64,000 bases of DNA, taken from contig NZ_LMCQ01000012.1 in the NCBI RefSeq assembly GCF_001424835.1, positions 401,829 to 465,828 of the forward strand, written 5' to 3'. The notes below the pieces were generated by a model. That model saw only the letters and a list, made by a program, of their open reading frames with translations. It ran no database searches and was not told where the DNA came from. The position numbers and the translations under genes were made by a program. Source of the stretch: Variovorax sp. Root318D1. GTDB lineage: Bacteria; Pseudomonadota; Gammaproteobacteria; Burkholderiales; Burkholderiaceae_C. Shown here in pieces: positions 32,337 through 40,284 of this stretch (within the stretch, counting starts at the first letter, position 1; the number at the start of each line of letters is the position of its first letter).

Positions 32337-33245
32337 TCAGTTGAGGGTGCCCAGCCGCGCGAGGATCAAGTCGTGCAGCGTCTGGGCCGCGACGGAAAGG
32401 CTTCCTTCCCGCCGCTGAACCAGGTAGATGGTGCGCGTCAGGCCGGGCAGCGGCAGTGGCCGGGTCACGAGGGTGTCGCGCCGGAAGTGAAACAGCGTGA
32501 GCTCCGGCACCACGCTGATGCCGATGCCCGCCTCCACCAGGCCCATGACGGTGGCCAGGTGCTCCACTTCGAACACCGCGTTGAGCCGGAGCGGATGCAG
32601 CGCGACATCGAGCGACTGGCGCACGCTGCTGTTGCGCGCCATCTGGATGAAGGGCCAGGGCGCGAGCTGCTTGGCCGTGAGCCGGGGCACCACGGCCAGG
32701 GGATGGTCCTTGCGGCACACCAGGTGAAAGCGGTCGTCGCAGAGCTTGCGCCCGCGCAGGTCGCTGGCCGCGGCCGCGCCGGCGCCTGTGGCCGCCAGCG
32801 CAAAGTCCGCTTGATGGCTGCGCAACTGGGCAATGCAGGCGTCCGACAGCGCATCGTGCAGCTCGACCGTGATCCCGGGCCAGGTCCGCATGAATTCCGC
32901 CAGGATGGCCGGCAGCCAGCCGGCCGCGAGCGAGGGCAGCGCCGCCACGCTCACGCGGCCCTTGCGCCGTTGGGCGTGGTCGGCCAGGTCGCCGATGGCA
33001 CCCTGCATGTCGTCCAGCAGGCGCCGCGCCGAAGGCTCGAACAGCAGCCCTTCGGGCGTGAGTTGCACGCTGCGGGTGTCGCGGTCGAACAGACGGGCGC
33101 CGAGCGTCTCTTCCAGCGTGCGGATCAGTGCGCTGAATGCGGGCTGCGACAGATGGCAGGTCTCTGCCGCCCGGGTGAAATTGCGCTGCTCGGCCAAGGC
33201 GGTGAACGCACGCAACTGGCGGCTGGAGAGGTCGGGCGCTGGCAT
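32337..33245 (-). CDS. LysR-family transcriptional regulator (divergent from the DctP-like gene)
   Basis: This 302-residue regulator has the helix-turn-helix at about residues 18-40 (RNFTRAAETCHLSQPAFSAL) and a full LysR effector domain, with RKDHPLAVVPRL and VEAGIGISVVPEL. The start MPAPDLSSRQ at 33245 is chosen by the domain start. Its promoter faces the binding-protein/c-di-GMP cluster across a 170-nt spacer that carries a perfect palindrome, so it may control that cluster as well as itself. Confidence 0.9.
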   Translation of the reverse strand: MPAPDLSSRQLRAFTALAEQRNFTRAAETCHLSQPAFSALIRTLEETLGARLFDRDTRSVQLTPEGLLFEPSARRLLDDMQGAIGDLADHAQRRKGRVSVAALPSLAAGWLPAILAEFMRTWPGITVELHDALSDACIAQLRSHQADFALAATGAGAAAASDLRGRKLCDDRFHLVCRKDHPLAVVPRLTAKQLAPWPFIQMARNSSVRQSLDVALHPLRLNAVFEVEHLATVMGLVEAGIGISVVPELTLFHFRRDTLVTRPLPLPGLTRTIYLVQRREGSLSVAAQTLHDLILARLGTLN

Positions 33246-33277
33246 CGGTCTGGAAAGTGGAGAAATGGTCCGCAGTT

Positions 33278-33289
33278 CCGAAATTTCGG
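33278..33289. promoter_or_regulatory. Palindrome CCGAAATTTCGG, possible LysR operator
   Basis: This perfect 12-bp palindrome lies 33 nt upstream of the minus-strand lysR start, in the spacer shared with the plus-strand DctP-like gene. Position and symmetry fit an operator; the exact T-N11-A form is not met. Confidence 0.4.
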
Positions 33290-33415
33290 TTCCCCGGCGC
33301 CTTGAATGGTATTCCTGTGCCCTGTACGCAACGGGCTTCGCGAACATGGACGGACAGGATGCTGGAATCGGGGTCTTGTGTAAAAAATTTGTGACTTCCG
33401 GCGCAATTCGGCATC

Positions 33416-34519
33416 ATGATCCGGGCCATGAAGTCCGGCGAAGCATCTTCTGCTCGGCAACGCGTCCTTTGGATGACGCAGGTTGCCGCTCTTTTTCTGG
33501 CTTTCGCAGCGACAAACAGCGAGGCCCAGCAATCCGCGTCCGCGCAAAGGCTGCGGATTGTGGGCGGCCTGGCCAGTGTGAGCCAGTACACGCTTCAGGA
33601 GGAGCCCTTCTGGAGCAAGGATCTGGCGCGCCTGAGCGGCGGCAAGTACAGCGCGACCATCGTCCCGTTCAACCAGGCCGGCGTGCCCGGACCGGAGATG
33701 CTCAATCTCATGCGGCTTGGCGTCATTCCTTTCGGCACCGCGCTGCTGACCCAGATCAGCAATGAGTACCCTGAACTGGGTACCCCGGACATCGCCGGCT
33801 TGAACCCCGACATGCCCACGCTGCGGCGGGTGATCGGCGCTTTCAGGCCCTACCTGGAAAAAACGCTGCGCGAGCGCCACGGCGTCGAGGTTCTTGCGGT
33901 GTATGTCTATCCGGCCCAGGTCATCTTCTGCAAGCAACCCGTGAAGCAACTCTCGGACATGGCGGGGCGGCGCATCCGCGTTTCGGGCAGCACGCAGGCC
34001 GATTTCGTCCGGGCGCTGAAGGGCGTGCCGGTGTTCACCGAATTCGCCGAACTCATGGCCAACATGAACTCGGAAAACACCGAGTGCGCGATCACGGGTG
34101 CGATGTCCGGCAACACGCTCGGCCTGCACAAGATCACCAGCTCTATCTACACAATGCCCATCAGCTGGGGCATCGCCGTGTTCGGCGCCAACACCGACGC
34201 ATGGAACGCGCTTCCTCAGGACTTGAAGCTCCTGTTGAAAACCGAGCTTCCCAAGCTCGAGGCGGCGGTATGGGCCGAATCGGAGCGCGACACCGGCAAC
34301 GGCATTGCGTGCAACACAGGTGCTTCGACATGCGTGAAGGGCACCAAGGGCGCCATGGTGGAGGCACGTCCTTCGGCGGATGACGAGCGCCGCAGGCGCG
34401 AGATCTTCGCCTCGAGCGTATTGACACGATGGGTACAGCGGTGCGGGGCGGTGTGCGCGGAGGTCTGGAACCAGACCGCGGGCCCCGTGGTGGGCATCAA
34501 GGCTCCCGTCGGACAGTGA
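33416..34519 (+). CDS. DctP-like TRAP-type substrate-binding protein
   Basis: This 367-residue exported protein has a signal peptide (cleavage near NSEAQQSA; the start could also be the ATG at 33428). It shows the DctP/TRAP receptor pattern: LRIVGGLASVSQYTL, GPEMLNLMRLGVIPFGTA, then LSDMAGRRIRVSGSTQADFV with the Arg that contacts a carboxylate in the family. The C-terminal part has four extra cysteines. No TRAP membrane genes are nearby. Its TGA overlaps the GTG start of the next gene, a GGDEF/EAL protein, so it may act as a sensor subunit rather than for uptake. Confidence 0.85.
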   Translation: MIRAMKSGEASSARQRVLWMTQVAALFLAFAATNSEAQQSASAQRLRIVGGLASVSQYTLQEEPFWSKDLARLSGGKYSATIVPFNQAGVPGPEMLNLMRLGVIPFGTALLTQISNEYPELGTPDIAGLNPDMPTLRRVIGAFRPYLEKTLRERHGVEVLAVYVYPAQVIFCKQPVKQLSDMAGRRIRVSGSTQADFVRALKGVPVFTEFAELMANMNSENTECAITGAMSGNTLGLHKITSSIYTMPISWGIAVFGANTDAWNALPQDLKLLLKTELPKLEAAVWAESERDTGNGIACNTGASTCVKGTKGAMVEARPSADDERRRREIFASSVLTRWVQRCGAVCAEVWNQTAGPVVGIKAPVGQ

Positions 34520-37488
34520 ACAAGCCACTGCCCCGCCGAATCACCGCCTTCGTCTATGGGGTTGCGGCGCTGTTTCTCGGCGCCGTCCTGTCGATTGCCG
34601 CCCTCACGATGTGGCAGACCTACCAGAAGGCCATTGCCGAAAGCGAGAGCGAGGCCAAGCGCTTCGTCGGCGCCTCGGAAGCTGCGCTCAACCGCAGTCT
34701 TCTGGCCGTGGACATGCTGCTCGCGGGCATGGGGCAGTTTCTGCGCAAATCCACTGAAGCCAGCGTTGCGTCCGACATTGCGCAACCCGACACCGCACAA
34801 CTCGTCGAGACCATCGTGCGGCAGAGCCTGCTGGTGCGGTATCTGGCGTTCCTGAATCCCGACGGCACCGTCGTCGGGTCTTCCGACCGCCGGGGCGCCG
34901 GGCTGGCGGTACAACTGCCCGACGGATTCCTGAAAGAACTCTTGAACCGGCCCGCGTCCCTGCTGGCGATCAGTGCACCTTCGGTCAGCCTGGCGACATC
35001 GCAGCAGGTGCTGTACTTCGGGCGCGTGCTCCGCCTGGCGGACGGCAGCAGGCTCGTGGCAGTGGCCGAAGTGCAGGTGTCGATGCTCACCACAATTCTT
35101 GCGCAGGGCGCGAGCATCAAGGGGCTCGAGGTCACGCTGGAGCGCGACGCGGGGCCGCTCTTGGCCAGCATGCCGCCACGCGACGATCTTGCCGGACGGG
35201 CCATCAGCCCCGCAGTGACGGACCAGGTCAGCGACGGGCGGCCGCGCCGGATGAATGCGCGGCTCAGCGGCACTCCCGCCATCGTCGTGGCCCGACCCAC
35301 GCTGTACCGCAACCTGCTGATCGTCGCGAGCATCCCGCTGGAGGTCGCGCTCGAGGACTGGCGCAGGGAGCGCGATCTGATCCTGAGTACGGCGCTGGCC
35401 TTCACGCTGATGATTCTGGCCGTCAGCTACTTCGCCCATCTGCAACTGCGCCGGCAGTGGCGTTCCCGCGGCGACCTGCTCCGATCCAAGGCCACGCTGG
35501 ACCAGGCCCTCGAATCGATGGCGGACGGCTTCGTGCTGCTCGATCCGGATGGCCGCATCGTCACGTGGAACCGCCGCTTCGTCGATTACTTTCCCTGGAC
35601 CGAGACATTGCTTTCAACGCGGGCGACGTTCCAGCAGATCGACGACCAGAACGTGCGCCACCTGCAAGCGCAGAACGAGCAGGAACTCACCTTGCCGAAC
35701 GGCCAGGTGATCCTTGCGGTGAAAAGTCCCACGCCGGACGGCGGGCTGGTGTGCGTCTACCGCGACGTGACCGAGAAGCGGCGCCATCTTGCGGACATCC
35801 TCGAAGGCAAGGCACAGCTGCAGGCCACGCTGGACGCCCTGCCCGACGTGCTGCTGGAAGCCGGGATCGATGGCCGGTGCTACCGCTTCCATTCGCCGCG
35901 CCGCCCCAGGTCCTCCATCAGGGTGCGTGAGCCGGTCGGCAAGCTGATGTCCGAGCTGTTGCCGGCCAATGCCGCCGCCGAGGTGATGGTGGCGCTGCGC
36001 GATGCGTTCGAGTTCGGCTTCTCGTCCGGCAGGCAGTTCGAAAGCCGCGGGCCCAAGGGCGCGCTCTGGTTCGAGATTTCGGTGTCGCGCATGGCGGTTG
36101 GCGAAGGCGCCGACGCGCGCTTCATCGTCATCCTGCGCAACATCACGGACAGCAAGCTGGCGGCCCGAGAGATCGAGCACCTGGCTTTCTACGACATCCT
36201 CACGGGCCTGCCCAATCGGCGGCTGCTGCTGCATCGCCTGCAGGCCAGCATCGACTCCAACATCCGGCGTTCCAGGCACGGGGCCTTGCTGTTTCTCGAC
36301 CTGGACGATTTCAAGACGCTCAATGACGCGCTCGGCCATGCCGTTGGCGACGAGCTGCTGAAGCAGGTGGCCGTCCGGCTCCAGGGCAGCCTGGGCGAGG
36401 GCAGCACGGTTGCGCGGCTCGGCGGCGACGAATTCGTGGTGCTGCTCGAGAATCTCAACGAAGACCCCGCCATTGCCGCGATGCAGACGAACGCCAGCGG
36501 CGAGGCCATCCTCACGGGGCTGAACCAGTCGTTCCAACTGGAAAACCACCAGTACCACAGCACGTGCAGCATCGGCGCCGTGGTCTTCAACGCCACGCAT
36601 CAATCGCTCGAAGACCTGCTGAAGCAGGCGGACATTGCCATGTACTACGCCAAGTCGGCGGGAGGCAACGCGCTGCGCTTCTTCGAGACTGCCATGCAGA
36701 CGGCCATCACGGCCCGCGCCACGCTCGAAAGCGAACTGCACGCGGCGCTGGAAGGCGGGCAGTTCTTGCTGCACTACCAAAGCCAGGTCACGTCGGAAGG
36801 CCACATCGTGGGCGCCGAGGTCCTCATCCGCTGGCACCATCCGGAGAAGGGGCTGGTGCAGCCCGGAGGCTTCATCGAGCTGGCCGAGGAAACCGGGCTG
36901 ATCGTGCCGATCGGCATGTGGGTGCTCGAGACGGCCTGCGTGCAGCTCGAGCGCTGGAGCCACGATCCGAGGCGCCGGCACCTCCAGCTCGCAGTCAATG
37001 TCAGTGCGCGGCAGTTCCGCAGCGACGATTTCGTGGACCGGATTTGCGAGGTGATCCGAAGAACCGGCGCCGACCCGACGAGGCTGAAGCTGGAACTCAC
37101 CGAAAGCCTGCTGCAGGACAAGGTGACCGAAACGATCGGCAAGATGCAGTTGCTAGCGGCCATGGGCATCCACTTTTCGATGGACGACTTCGGCACCGGC
37201 TATTCGTCGCTCTCCTACATGACGCAGCTGCCCTTGAACCAGATCAAGGTCGACAAGTTCTTCGTGCAGAACATCGGGATCGATCCGAAGGTCGAGCTGA
37301 TCATCCAGGCCATCATCGGCATGGCGCACAACCTGGACCTCGAGATCGTGGCCGAGGGCGTCGAAACGCACCAGCAGTTCGAGTTTCTACAGGCGCACGG
37401 GGCCATGCTGTGCCAGGGCTACCTGTTCAGCAGGCCGGTGCCGATCGAGCAATTCGAAGCGCAGCTGGATGTCGCGATGGCCGACTGA
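34516..37488 (+). CDS. Membrane GGDEF/EAL protein (c-di-GMP synthesis and breakdown)
   Basis: This 990-residue protein starts with GTG at 34516, overlapping the previous stop. A first span (about 10-32), a periplasmic sensor region of about 255 residues and a second span (about 290-310) precede two PAS-like domains (about 330-425 and 438-550). The GGDEF domain (motif RLGGDEF near residue 636) is intact but has no RxxD inhibitory site. The EAL domain has EVL instead of EAL (GAEVLIRWH) but keeps DDFGTGYSSL, KVDKFFV and AEGVE. Both activities are possible. The periplasmic part probably reads the partner binding protein. Confidence 0.92.
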   Translation: MNKPLPRRITAFVYGVAALFLGAVLSIAALTMWQTYQKAIAESESEAKRFVGASEAALNRSLLAVDMLLAGMGQFLRKSTEASVASDIAQPDTAQLVETIVRQSLLVRYLAFLNPDGTVVGSSDRRGAGLAVQLPDGFLKELLNRPASLLAISAPSVSLATSQQVLYFGRVLRLADGSRLVAVAEVQVSMLTTILAQGASIKGLEVTLERDAGPLLASMPPRDDLAGRAISPAVTDQVSDGRPRRMNARLSGTPAIVVARPTLYRNLLIVASIPLEVALEDWRRERDLILSTALAFTLMILAVSYFAHLQLRRQWRSRGDLLRSKATLDQALESMADGFVLLDPDGRIVTWNRRFVDYFPWTETLLSTRATFQQIDDQNVRHLQAQNEQELTLPNGQVILAVKSPTPDGGLVCVYRDVTEKRRHLADILEGKAQLQATLDALPDVLLEAGIDGRCYRFHSPRRPRSSIRVREPVGKLMSELLPANAAAEVMVALRDAFEFGFSSGRQFESRGPKGALWFEISVSRMAVGEGADARFIVILRNITDSKLAAREIEHLAFYDILTGLPNRRLLLHRLQASIDSNIRRSRHGALLFLDLDDFKTLNDALGHAVGDELLKQVAVRLQGSLGEGSTVARLGGDEFVVLLENLNEDPAIAAMQTNASGEAILTGLNQSFQLENHQYHSTCSIGAVVFNATHQSLEDLLKQADIAMYYAKSAGGNALRFFETAMQTAITARATLESELHAALEGGQFLLHYQSQVTSEGHIVGAEVLIRWHHPEKGLVQPGGFIELAEETGLIVPIGMWVLETACVQLERWSHDPRRRHLQLAVNVSARQFRSDDFVDRICEVIRRTGADPTRLKLELTESLLQDKVTETIGKMQLLAAMGIHFSMDDFGTGYSSLSYMTQLPLNQIKVDKFFVQNIGIDPKVELIIQAIIGMAHNLDLEIVAEGVETHQQFEFLQAHGAMLCQGYLFSRPVPIEQFEAQLDVAMAD

Positions 37489-37517: not shown

Positions 37518-39080
37518 ATGATGCGCTTGCCGACCTTCAGCCTGCGCACCCGCCTGACCGCGGGCGTGGTTGCGATCGTTTTCCTGACGACCTTCGGAGT
37601 GACCACCGCTGCGCTCTACTTCGTCAAGCGCAACATGCAAGCCGCCATTGCCAGCGAGCAACTCGAGCGGATATCGGCCATAGCCGACGCGGTGGACCAG
37701 AAGTTCTTGAGCCGGCGCACCTTGCTCAAGACCTTCGGCGACGCCGTCGAGAGCCACGACCTCACCAGCCCCGACGGACTGCAGGACCTGGTCATGCGGC
37801 ACGAGTCGCTGAAAGAGGCCTTCGACAACGTCGCCTTCGTGGACACCGACGGCAAGCTGGTTGCCAACCTGAACGGCGCACACCAGATCGGCCGGGTCAA
37901 CGTCAAGGACCGCGAGTATTTCCAGCGCACGATGGCAGCCAAGGCCGGCGTCATTTCGGCGCCCTACCGCAACCGGCTCAACGGTCTGGCGCAGATCGCC
38001 ATGACCGAACCGGTGCTGGACCGGCAGGGCAACGTCGCCTACGTCATCTCCGCCTCGATCAACCTCAAGGAACAGAACTTCCTCGGCGAACTTGCCAACG
38101 TGAAATTCGGCAAGACCGGGTACATGTTCATCACGAACACCGATGGCATCGTCATCGACCACCCCGACAAGTCCAGGCTGCTCCAGCATGTGGAGGCCAA
38201 TGGCGTGCGCAACGCCGCCACAGCGCGCGCCATCGCCGGCTACGAGGGCACGGCCGAAGCCGTGAACCGCAATGGCGTGCGCGGCCTCTACGCCTTCAAG
38301 CCGATCCGCCAGACCAATTGGGTGCTGGGAGCGATCTATCCGCGCGACGAAGCCTTTGCCCGCATCGAGCAGATCGAGCGCTTCGCGTGGGCGGGCGCAT
38401 TGCTGCTGGCGCTCCTGACCGGCGCGCTCGCCTTCGTGACCACGCGGACGCAGCTCGCGCCCTTGTCCCGTCTGCGCGAGCACATGCAGGTTTCGGGGGC
38501 GGCCGCGGTCTATGCGCCCATGAAGGAAGCGCCGTCCACGGACGAAGTCGGCGATCTGTCGCGCACCTTCGATTCACTGATGCAGGAGCGCCAGGCGTCC
38601 CAGGAGCGGGTGCAGGCCAGCGAAAGATTCCTGCGTGACGTGACGGACAACCTGCCGGCGGTCGTTGCCTATTTCGACAGCGAGCAACGCTGCCTGTTCG
38701 CCAACAAGGCGGGGCTTGGAATGCGCGGCAGATCGCGGGCCGACATCGGGCGCATGACCATGCAGGAGTCGCTGCCCGACGCGGTCTACCGGCAGCTCGT
38801 TCCGCACATCGACAAGGTGCTCGCGGGAACACCGACGCGCGCGGAAGGCACCTACGACCGCAAACGGCAAGGAAGGCTTCTTCGAGTGCCATCTGGCACC
38901 CGACATTCGCGACGACGGCGTGTTGGCCGGCTTCTACGTGATGACCTTCGACATCACGCGCCAGAAGGTGGCCGAGCGCGAGCGCGCGGCCGGCGAGGCC
39001 CGCGTGCGCACCATCACCGACAACCTTCCGGCGCTGGTCTCTCACGTGGATGCGTCGCTGCGCTTCACCTTCGTGAATGA
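37518..39080 (+). CDS. 5' open frame of the broken diguanylate cyclase (Cache-HAMP-PAS part)
   Basis: As it stands this frame encodes 520 residues. The first 448 or so are the true sensor part: two membrane spans, Cache domain, HAMP and most of the first PAS domain. After base 38864 the frame is wrong; the last 70 residues are Arg-rich and match nothing. It carries no output domain. Confidence 0.7.
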   Translation: MMRLPTFSLRTRLTAGVVAIVFLTTFGVTTAALYFVKRNMQAAIASEQLERISAIADAVDQKFLSRRTLLKTFGDAVESHDLTSPDGLQDLVMRHESLKEAFDNVAFVDTDGKLVANLNGAHQIGRVNVKDREYFQRTMAAKAGVISAPYRNRLNGLAQIAMTEPVLDRQGNVAYVISASINLKEQNFLGELANVKFGKTGYMFITNTDGIVIDHPDKSRLLQHVEANGVRNAATARAIAGYEGTAEAVNRNGVRGLYAFKPIRQTNWVLGAIYPRDEAFARIEQIERFAWAGALLLALLTGALAFVTTRTQLAPLSRLREHMQVSGAAAVYAPMKEAPSTDEVGDLSRTFDSLMQERQASQERVQASERFLRDVTDNLPAVVAYFDSEQRCLFANKAGLGMRGRSRADIGRMTMQESLPDAVYRQLVPHIDKVLAGTPTRAEGTYDRKRQGRLLRVPSGTRHSRRRRVGRLLRDDLRHHAPEGGRARARGRRGPRAHHHRQPSGAGLSRGCVAALHLRE

Positions 39081-40284
39081 ACATTTGCGCGCCTTGTTCG
39101 ACGGTGTCGAGCTGGTGGGAAAGCTGCTGCCCGAGGTGCGTGGCGCTGAAGACTTCGAAGTGGTCGAGCCCTACGTCCGGCGTGTGCTCGCCGGCGAAGC
39201 GGTCACCTTCGAGAAGAAGGGCGATCCGGCACGCGGCATCGGGCATAAGTGGCACCAGTCGCACTACATCCCCGATCGCAACGCGGACGGCACCGTGCGC
39301 GGCTTCTACGCCATGACCTTCGACATCACCGAGCGCAAGCAGGCCGAGATGCGAAGCGCCGAGAGCGAGCGCCGCCTGCGGGGCCTGACCGACAACGTGC
39401 CGGCGCTCATGACCGAACTGGACCGCGACGAGCGGGTTGTCTTCTGCAACGGCAGATACCAGACCTGGCTCGGCATCTCGCCGGAAGCGATGATGAACCG
39501 GCCGATCCGCGAGGTGATCGGCGATGCGCACTACGAGATGCGCAAGCCTCTGCTGGCACGCGCGTTTGCCGGCGAGGTGGTGTCTTTCGAACAATCGGCC
39601 CGGCTGCTGATCGGCGAACGAACCCTGCAGACGACCTACCTGCCGCAGAAGAATGCCGAGGGCGAGGTCGTCGGCCTGTACGTGCTGGCGAACGATGTCA
39701 GCGACCTGAAGCAAAAGCAGCTGCAGCTGGATGTGCTTGCGCGCGAAGATGCGCTCACCGGCCTGCCCAACCGGCGGTCGTTCGAAGAGCATGTGCACGA
39801 CGCCATGGCCAGGTCGCGGCGGTCCGGCCTTTCGGTCTGCCTGCTGTTCTTGGACATCGACTACTTCAAGACCATCAACGATTCGCTGGGCCATGCGGCG
39901 GGCGACGCGGTGCTGAAGGAATTCGGCCGCCGGCTCCGGCAGAGCGTGCGCGACACCGACATGGCGGCCCGCTACGCCGGCGACGAATTCGTGATTCTTC
40001 TCGAAGGGGTGGCGGGCGCCGCAGAAGCGCAAATGGTCGCAGGCAAGGTGCTGGCCGCCATGCGGCCGGCCTTCAGCCTGCCCAACCGCACCCTGCACGC
40101 CACGACCAGCATCGGCGTTGCGATGTCGGAAGAAGACGAGGACTTTCCTTCCTTGCTGGTGCGTGCCGACAACGCGCTGTACGCGGCCAAGAAAGAGGGC
40201 AAGAACCGCTTCGTGATGGCGGCGCCCAGGCCCGAAGCCAGCGGCGCTGGCGCGTGGCCGCGGCAGGAGCCCTACAGCGCCTGA
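38920..40284 (+). CDS. 3' open frame of the broken diguanylate cyclase (PAS-PAS-GGDEF part)
   Basis: This frame, opened by a TTG at 38920, encodes 454 residues: the end of one PAS domain, two further PAS domains with similar starts (ITDNLPALVSHVDASL and LTDNVPALMTELDRDE) and a GGDEF domain with YAGDEFVILLEG. The frame is intact, but no ribosome-binding site is evident and its natural start lies in the upstream frame. If translated on its own it would be a soluble cyclase. Confidence 0.7.
   Translation: MLAGFYVMTFDITRQKVAERERAAGEARVRTITDNLPALVSHVDASLRFTFVNEHLRALFDGVELVGKLLPEVRGAEDFEVVEPYVRRVLAGEAVTFEKKGDPARGIGHKWHQSHYIPDRNADGTVRGFYAMTFDITERKQAEMRSAESERRLRGLTDNVPALMTELDRDERVVFCNGRYQTWLGISPEAMMNRPIREVIGDAHYEMRKPLLARAFAGEVVSFEQSARLLIGERTLQTTYLPQKNAEGEVVGLYVLANDVSDLKQKQLQLDVLAREDALTGLPNRRSFEEHVHDAMARSRRSGLSVCLLFLDIDYFKTINDSLGHAAGDAVLKEFGRRLRQSVRDTDMAARYAGDEFVILLEGVAGAAEAQMVAGKVLAAMRPAFSLPNRTLHATTSIGVAMSEEDEDFPSLLVRADNALYAAKKEGKNRFVMAAPRPEASGAGAWPRQEPYSA

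Follow-up and report, generated by a model that had tools for sequence, protein, structure and literature searches.

Genes and features of the locus

The window, a stretch of 64,000 nucleotides from Variovorax sp. Root318D1, contains a gene for a DctP-like solute-binding protein (SBP) of the TRAP family, followed on the same strand by the gene of the membrane protein P0002 with the architecture dCache-PAS-PAS-GGDEF-EAL (from here: the sensor) (Table 1). The GTG start codon of the sensor gene (34516-34518) and the stop codon of the SBP gene (34517-34519) share bases, as read directly from the window sequence, which confirms the GTGA overlap reported in the first-pass annotation. The strict coupling deduced from it fits the window and the usual arrangement, but the four-base overlap is not universal: it was present in 59 of 79 named loci and in 48 of 85 unnamed ones.

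Table 1. Coordinates of the features at the locus (positions in the window)
Feature	Position	Strand	Details
LysR-type regulator gene, neighbour	32337..33347	-	PF00126, PF03466; outside the conserved unit
Conserved block in the LysR/SBP spacer	33304..33333	.	Alignment of 9 spacers
DctP-like (TRAP family) SBP gene	33416..34519	+	367 aa; profile matches, fold, alignment
GTGA overlap, sensor start codon and SBP stop	34516..34519	+
Membrane sensor P0002, whole	34516..37488	+	990 aa
Periplasmic dCache domain, about residues 30-285, flanked by two membrane helices	34603..35370	+	AlphaFold2 model; approximate limits
Two PAS regions, within residues 332-547	35509..36156	+	Pfam PAS_7, PAS_4
GGDEF domain, catalytic motif intact, without RxxD site	36184..36669	+	152 bits
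EAL domain, EVL variant, catalytic residues intact	36733..37437	+	226 bits

The SBP matched the DctP-family profile PF03480 with 47.6 bits (cut-off 23.4) and NCBIfam TRAP_S1 with 68.9 bits (cut-off 50); on the narrower TIGR00787 dctP profile it scored 30.8 bits, far short of the cut-off of 175. Its structural model could be superposed on the solved TRAP SBPs 4n4u (Z 31.8) and 2pfz (Z 30.9), and the 50 structural matches listed, with Z scores of 28.2-31.8 over about 300 residues, were nearly all titled TRAP SBPs. The modelled protein thus has the DctP fold. Residues 1-37 are probably a signal peptide, with a predicted cleavage site at its end.

A conserved ligand-binding arginine in beta-strand 6 of TRAP SBPs is described in PMC5812351. 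Residue Arg188, located in strand 186-189 of the model, was invariant in the alignment of all 86 sensor-linked SBPs and would correspond to this arginine, an equivalence that comes from sequence alignment, not from coordinates. Because of the fold and the invariant Arg188 we propose a small molecule, probably a carboxylate, as ligand of the SBP. Six cysteines were likewise invariant (86/86) and occurred also in 39 to 42 of 42 DctM-linked relatives. Position 237 separated the two groups, with Trp in 42/42 DctM-linked and Leu in 86/86 sensor-linked SBPs, and Lys236 of the DctM-linked relatives is replaced by Gly in the sensor-linked SBP. Two loci with split SBP frames (L151 and L153) were excluded from these residue counts and from the SBP tree.

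For residues 1-330 of the sensor, an AlphaFold2 model with a pLDDT of 83.1 was obtained. Its periplasmic part has the dCache fold, with 3lif as best structural match (Z 22.5 over 236 residues), while the Pfam dCache_1 profile gave 28.0 bits, under the cut-off of 45. In the cytoplasmic part a motif check found GGDEF, ExLxR, N, E, DD, K, E and Q, positions that we take to be the catalytic ones. Hence, the active-site motifs of both the cyclase and the phosphodiesterase are intact and both activities are predicted. Among 107 distinct GGDEF-EAL partner proteins the checked catalytic positions were kept in 106 or 107, and 102 had the initial G of GGDEF; these proteins had been selected for a length of >840 aa and for carrying ExLxRW or GGDEF, which favours these very motifs in the counts. 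Three further sensor proteins >840 aa with neither motif were kinase-type. The missing RxxD site had been noted before and is indeed absent in the window (G627 and S630 at the respective positions), but this is a minority state, as R was present in 89 and D in 94 of the 107 relatives. Similarly, the EVL variant is real (residues 768-770), but it is not supported as a sign of altered activity, since V occurred in 45/107 relatives and the other checked EAL positions are intact.

The start of the neighbouring LysR gene is probably near 33245. This divergent gene and the palindrome CCGAAATTTCGG at 33278-33289 in the LysR/SBP spacer had been suggested to tie expression to the same ligand. Both are present in the window, but neither belongs to the conserved unit: of 88 sensor-linked loci, nine (L062-L069, L082) have a LysR gene beside the pair, and among the nine spacers the palindrome was imperfect in the two nearest and absent in the other six. 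LysR and palindrome were therefore rejected as parts of the unit. Judging from its alignment, the conserved spacer block is a more promising operator candidate than this palindrome.

TRAP membrane genes and linkage to the sensor

In a genome-wide search, the DctM gene nearest to the SBP gene (C12:435433) was found at C12:545070, about 109 kb away. Judged by DctM, the membrane subunits of a complete TRAP transporter are thus not encoded with the SBP, in agreement with the absence claimed at the outset. Ten DctM loci were detected in this genome. Another DctP of the same genome (C1:61768) likewise had no DctM match on its own contig.

Among 399 genomes of one Burkholderiales family (f1), 72 SBP loci with at least 44% identity were found in 71 genomes. 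One of them (L135) had a DctM match, 4-5 kb off and on the opposite strand; none of the 80 named loci had DctM within up to 6 kb on each side. DctM neighbours were regular only at identities of at most 39%: all 23 such relatives within the family had DctM matched somewhere in the stretch retrieved around them. Relatives outside the family had a match in 17 of the 20 regions fetched, which are a subset of the listed matches; L079 came from a separate retrieval. Regular pairing of SBP orthologs with dctQM, named beforehand as the observation that would speak against the proposed receptor, was not found.

Linkage to the sensor was nearly complete. It was seen in 71/72 of the family loci, the remaining one being at a contig end, and in 79 of the 80 named loci, the 80th having a sensor gene upstream; the two sets have genomes in common. 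Conservation of the pair away from permease genes, as the first-pass annotation had proposed to check, is therefore borne out, with the single DctM match mentioned above. The distribution of the pair is patchy (71/399 family genomes; 17/37 genomes of the same genus, own genome included; 30 of 141 genera sampled, all in the one family). SBPs with at least 44% identity were confined to f1 genomes (3/399 in the order sample, 1/369 in the class sample), as was the sensor in the order sample (3/250 genomes, all f1). Five weak sensor matches (G108, G112, G367, G402, G426; E 2.7e-16 to 4.1e-10) were kept out of the sensor counts. The one that was domain-scanned (G108, L346) is a dCache-PAS-HisKA_3 kinase. 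SBP relatives on alphaproteobacterial plasmid records had 31-36% identity.

Seen from the other side, 79 strong sensor loci were present in the 399 family genomes, and 71 of these adjoin this SBP, while 4 more adjoin an SBP of another family with a four-base overlap. For two sensors (L344, L345) the gene directly upstream does not encode an SBP. In the last two (L342, L343) there is a TctC-type SBP gene ahead of the sensor, but about 330 bp separate its end from the aligned sensor start. In view of these four loci, the dCache domain may also sense alone.

A branch with an SH-aLRT of 100 in the SBP tree had the 86 sensor-linked rows as one of its two sides (quick, unrooted tree; L301, whose two tandem SBPs lie at the end of a contig, was excluded). 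The DctP relatives (35%) adjoining a hybrid kinase in three other genomes (G049, G1166, G1070) formed a separate clade of three. Distance matrices of the SBP correlated with those of the periplasmic domain at r 0.843 versus 0.812 for GGDEF-EAL, the half-sample difference ranging from -0.025 to 0.077; for more distant pairs the values were 0.706 versus 0.720, slightly the reverse of what co-evolution would lead one to expect. The pairing of SBP and periplasmic domain does not stand out by this measure.

Exchange of outputs and inputs

Sorted by the end of the sensor, 86 loci comprised 60 GGDEF-EAL proteins, 23 hybrid histidine kinases and 3 cut sensors. A domain scan of nine sensors found HisKA, HATPase_c and Response_reg in five and GGDEF plus EAL in four. 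The c-di-GMP output initially proposed is consequently frequent but not the sole one. No consistent response regulator was present beside the kinase-type sensors among the 23 loci, and GGDEF or GGDEF-EAL matches were found near them in four of the 23 fetched stretches (L093, L096, L112, L149). The input can differ as well: within one genus, four genomes have an unrelated SBP of the SBP_bac_1/8 type ahead of the sensor, again with a four-base overlap (three of the four genes were domain-scanned).

Interpretation and rival explanations

These data strongly support that the SBP would serve a membrane signalling protein rather than a transporter. Being encoded, in Variovorax and related bacteria, beside such a protein and not beside a transporter, it is most likely not an importer but passes information on a chemical outside the cell to an internal signal that switches lifestyle. 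We consider it likely that the TRAP-type SBP reads the ligand for a signalling receptor that acts via the dCache domain on c-di-GMP or on a kinase. In the proposed mechanism, the SBP would bind a small molecule in the periplasm and, once liganded, dock on the dCache domain of the co-encoded membrane protein. The conformational change of dCache would pass through the second membrane helix and the two PAS domains to GGDEF-EAL, where it would shift c-di-GMP synthesis relative to breakdown, as permitted by the two intact active-site motifs. Sister lineages would use this receptor half to control a hybrid histidine kinase instead. The core of the earlier idea, an SBP that serves the signalling protein and not a transporter, is strongly supported by the SBP-sensor association (71/72 loci); its additional parts, LysR, palindrome and EVL, are not.

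Alternatively, the SBP could be a transport receptor for TRAP membrane subunits encoded elsewhere, with the sensor sensing on its own. The ten DctM loci, the second DctP lacking a DctM match on its contig and the fact that many of the best-matching dCache structures contain a directly bound small ligand are in favour of this. Still, it appears unlikely, as 71/72 family orthologs adjoin the sensor against one DctM match on the opposite strand, the coupling is kept where the SBP belongs to another family, and Trp237 of the DctM-linked relatives is lost. Dual use, in which the SBP would supply a distant transporter and at the same time signal its occupancy to the sensor, has a precedent in Bordetella BctC, a TctC-type SBP needed for transport and signalling (PMC5812351). 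With orthologs not arranged alongside TRAP membrane genes and a linkage to the sensor that is near absolute, we consider this very unlikely. That the SBP binds no small molecule and is a structural or redox-sensing subunit, as its six invariant cysteines (86/86) might suggest, is hardly credible, as these cysteines recur in 39 to 42 of 42 DctM-linked relatives and the ligand arginine is equally invariant.

Returning to the SBP as ligand-reading subunit, transport may have been its ancestral role; the SBP tree is unrooted. It is an even call whether the dCache domain of this sensor family offers periplasmic binding proteins in general a platform to dock on, recombined at both ends within one bacterial family, with DctP-type or SBP_bac_1/8-type (possibly TctC-type) inputs and GGDEF-EAL or hybrid kinase outputs. 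The specificity of c-di-GMP circuits would then evolve by swapping the soluble receptor. An uptake role is not a given for genes annotated as TRAP substrate-binding protein.

Comparison with known systems

SBPs in signal transduction are reportedly the subject of a review by Matilla and others from 2021. A literature search found few described cases of a binding protein controlling a c-di-GMP enzyme, and none of the papers that it listed had a DctP-type SBP as the partner of a GGDEF/EAL protein; an earlier precedent is possible. NspS of Vibrio cholerae belongs to an SBP family other than the DctP type. As described in PMC8967002, the ligand state of this periplasmic SBP sets the balance of the membrane GGDEF-EAL protein MbaA, and its polyamine ligands are imported by a separate system, PotABCD1. 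The pair described here is similar in combining an SBP with a membrane GGDEF-EAL protein, with conserved adjacency. It differs in that NspS binds polyamines, whereas here the SBP is DctP-type and the sensor family occurs also with kinase outputs and with another SBP.

In Salmonella, STM1987 is a c-di-GMP protein with a periplasmic dCACHE_1 domain, and the response to arginine depends on ArtI, a putative binding protein, as well (PMC8846402). A dCache on a c-di-GMP protein and a binding protein are common to both cases, but ArtI is arginine-binding. It is part of an ABC system. In Bordetella, the tripartite carboxylate transporter SBP BctC is needed for two-component signalling with BctDE (PMC5812351); in contrast to the present SBP, BctC is of the TctC family, has transporter genes close by and has a two-component output.

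The SBP shares its fold with the transport SBPs 4n4u, 2pfz and SiaP (2cey), with Z scores of 29.0 to 31.8 across about 300 residues, and it also shares the ligand arginine. It differs from DctP/TRAP transport SBPs in that its orthologs are without DctM neighbours and in the changes Trp237 to Leu and Lys236 to Gly relative to DctM-linked relatives. The hybrid kinases of the three genomes with the separate SBP clade, which presumably resemble TorS, also have a DctP relative beside a membrane signalling protein, but the sensor is unrelated, with HAMP in the one scanned. In the present system both input and output have been exchanged naturally, and these exchanges make it testable how a sensor reads a docked SBP and whether specificity follows the soluble partner.

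The binding protein and its sensor

The DctP-like gene of the window encodes a secreted solute-binding protein (SBP), whose AlphaFold2 model (pLDDT 89.8) was superposed over about 300 residues on solved TRAP SBPs (4n4u, Z 31.8; 2pfz, Z 30.9; SiaP 2cey, Z 29.0). Its stop codon shares bases with the GTG start of the sensor gene, which encodes 990 residues comprising a periplasmic domain, two PAS regions, GGDEF and EAL. The periplasmic domain stayed under the Pfam dCache cut-off and its model shows the dCache fold (pLDDT 83.1; 3lif, Z 22.5 over 236 residues). In the following gene the reading frame is lost, through either a broken gene or a sequencing error; its counterpart is one open frame in four other loci (L063, L064, L066, L069).

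Features in the window and in compared loci
Feature	Location	Strand	Remark
Palindrome, LysR/SBP spacer	33278		
Conserved block, LysR/SBP spacer	33304-33333		
Secreted DctP-family SBP	33416-34519	+	PF03480, 47.6 bits (cut-off 23.4)
GTGA overlap	34516-34519		SBP stop and sensor start
Sensor	34516-37488	+	
Next gene	37518-40284		dCache, PAS, GGDEF domain with AGDEF motif; frame lost near 38870-38920
Second DctP gene, window genome	G000:C1:61768-62616		No DctM match on own contig
GGDEF and EAL matches, kinase-type loci	L093:2383-3636; L096:2348-3607		About 0.85 kb upstream of SBP (SBP set on + strand)
DctP relative and TorS-like kinase	L079:8569-12810		Outside the family

Conservation of the pair and lack of transporter genes

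In a sample of 399 genomes of the window's family, SBP matches at an E-value of 1e-55 or better defined 95 loci, the window included, which fell by identity into 72 loci at 44% or above (71 genomes, 30 genus codes) and 23 at 39% or below. The sensor gene lies directly downstream in 70 of these 72 loci, spaced by −20 to +182 bases except at L151 with its split SBP frame; L101 carries a kinase-type sensor directly upstream of the SBP gene, and at L126 the contig stops after the SBP locus. All 16 further orthologs from a nearest-relatives search (58–96%) had the sensor, two being cut at the contig end and L068 having a broken sensor frame. In a separate collection of 80 named loci, whose genomes partly overlap with the family sample, the sensor was downstream in 79, the 80th being the L101 contig. 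Two of the best three PLSDB plasmid records have a "TRAP transporter substrate-binding protein" annotated beside an "EAL domain-containing protein"; the third is unannotated there. A split SBP frame was also seen at L153.

The genome of the window has 13 DctP matches and 11 DctM (TRAP membrane subunit) matches; the latter represent ten loci, one of them split in two, and the closest DctM is about 109 kb from the SBP gene. Among the fetched stretches, DctM was matched at one of the 72 high-identity loci (L135, opposite strand, 4–5 kb away) versus all 23 low-identity loci, and none was found in flanks of at most 6 kb around the 80 named loci. Judged by DctM, the first-pass annotation was right that the SBP comes without transporter genes nearby; the pair is kept where DctM is not a neighbor, and regular pairing with DctM is confined to the low-identity relatives. 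The strict coupling it proposed is usual, not universal: among unnamed loci 48 of 85 overlap by four bases, among named ones 59 of 79. By output type, and with the sensor downstream, this overlap occurs in 41/60 GGDEF-EAL pairs versus 6/22 kinase-type pairs, the remaining kinase-type pairs having gaps of 2 to 182 bases.

Exchange of outputs and inputs

At the 86 sensor-linked loci in the SBP tree, from which L151 and L153 were omitted because of their split SBP frames, the outputs were GGDEF-EAL (60), hybrid histidine kinase (23) or cut off (3). Pfam scans of nine sensors found HisKA, HATPase_c and Response_reg in five and GGDEF and EAL in four. Sensor-linked SBPs lie on one side of a branch with SH-aLRT 100, and SBPs linked to TorS-like kinases on another (95). 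Two changes between the output types are needed on this tree and two on that of the sensor's first 325 residues, where a single change is also possible; both trees were quick and unrooted, and the program warned of long branches meeting, including between the sensor-linked set and ten DctM-linked rows. The trees being unrooted, it is the wider spread of DctM-linked relatives that suggests transport as the original role of the SBP lineage. Given the GGDEF and EAL matches upstream of the SBP in L093 and L096, kinase-type sensors may nevertheless act on c-di-GMP.

When the 399 family genomes were searched with a profile covering alignment positions 1–335 of the sensor, strong matches came from 79 loci (74 genomes); five weakly matching genomes were excluded from the count. 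A DctP-type SBP gene adjoins 71 of them. At four loci, all from genus g86, an unrelated SBP gene precedes the sensor and overlaps its start by four bases; the three scanned match SBP_bac_1, two of them also SBP_bac_8, and the fourth looks alike by eye. Two g86 genomes (G310, G434) lack an SBP of the window's clade, the best matches being 22–25% identical. At two loci of genus g96 a TctC-type SBP gene (one of two scanned) stops about 330 bp short of where the aligned sensor begins; at two of genus g152 no SBP gene is directly upstream. Of all observations, the exchange of the SBP hints most strongly at a periplasmic domain that reads SBPs. The sensor-family members L344 and L345, directly preceded by a short-chain-dehydrogenase-like gene (named by eye) instead of an SBP gene, are useful negative controls.

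Residues, enzyme domains and the LysR gene

Arg188, in model strand 186–189, aligns with the arginine of TRAP SBPs to which a review assigns a crucial role in contacting the ligand (PMC5812351), and is invariant in sensor-linked (86/86), DctM-linked (42/42) and TorS-linked (3/3) SBPs. Nearly all SBPs compared also share six cysteines. Position 237 is Trp in 42/42 DctM-linked and Leu in 86/86 sensor-linked SBPs, and position 236 is Lys in 39/42 and Gly in 85/86, respectively. Gly-Leu thereby takes the place of the transporter-linked Lys-Trp in 85/86 sensor-linked SBPs; the three TorS-linked SBPs have lost the Trp (Leu, Met or Phe) and keep the Lys.

Enzyme domains were compared in 107 distinct GGDEF-EAL partners above 840 aa, picked by an ExLxRW or GGDEF motif. 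Each catalytic position that was checked is kept in 106 or 107 of them, and 102 retain the first G of GGDEF. Since 45 have V in the EAL motif and the catalytic positions are kept, EVL, noted earlier in the phosphodiesterase domain, gives no reason to expect impairment. The missing I-site was correctly noted: the window protein has neither the R (89/107) nor the D (94/107), judged by these alignments a minority state. A suggested tie to a LysR gene and a palindrome did not hold up, as LysR is beside the pair at 9 of 88 sensor-linked loci and the palindrome is not kept across these nine spacers; a neighboring block is conserved there.

Distribution

In two samples of the order the SBP clade occurred in 3/399 and the sensor in 3/250 genomes, all of the window's family, and in the class sample of 369 the SBP clade was in the window's own genome alone; neither was seen beyond the family in these samples. 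Within it the pair is patchy (71/399 genomes), named carriers including Variovorax, Acidovorax, Rhodoferax, Curvibacter, Simplicispira, Aquabacterium, Rhizobacter and Albitalea. Around 20 extra-family relatives (at most 38% identical), DctM was present in 17 regions, a TorS-like hybrid kinase in two and neither in one, at a contig end; L079 is a third TorS-like case. DctP relatives (35%) adjoin such kinases in three extra-family genomes (L079, L288, L291), perhaps a second recruitment of the SBP subfamily to signaling.

Comparison with known systems

Distance correlations do not set the periplasmic domain apart as the partner of the SBP: r is 0.843 for SBP and periplasmic domain and 0.812 for SBP and output, and for more distant pairs the values are 0.706 and 0.720. 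No DctP-type SBP acting on a GGDEF/EAL protein was found among the papers listed in the literature searched, most subscription papers being outside its coverage. According to reviews, cyclases, kinases and chemoreceptors can all be targets of SBPs (PMC9602780), and the arginine response of the dCACHE_1 protein STM1987 requires ArtI (PMC8846402). In NspS-MbaA the cyclase/phosphodiesterase balance depends on whether the SBP is occupied by its ligand (PMC8967002). Whereas gene order, folds, linkage and exchanges are observed here, the mechanism is proposed by analogy with NspS-MbaA: the SBP, bound to a putative ligand, would dock on the dCache domain of the sensor and would shift the GGDEF-EAL module, presumably changing c-di-GMP in one direction or the other.
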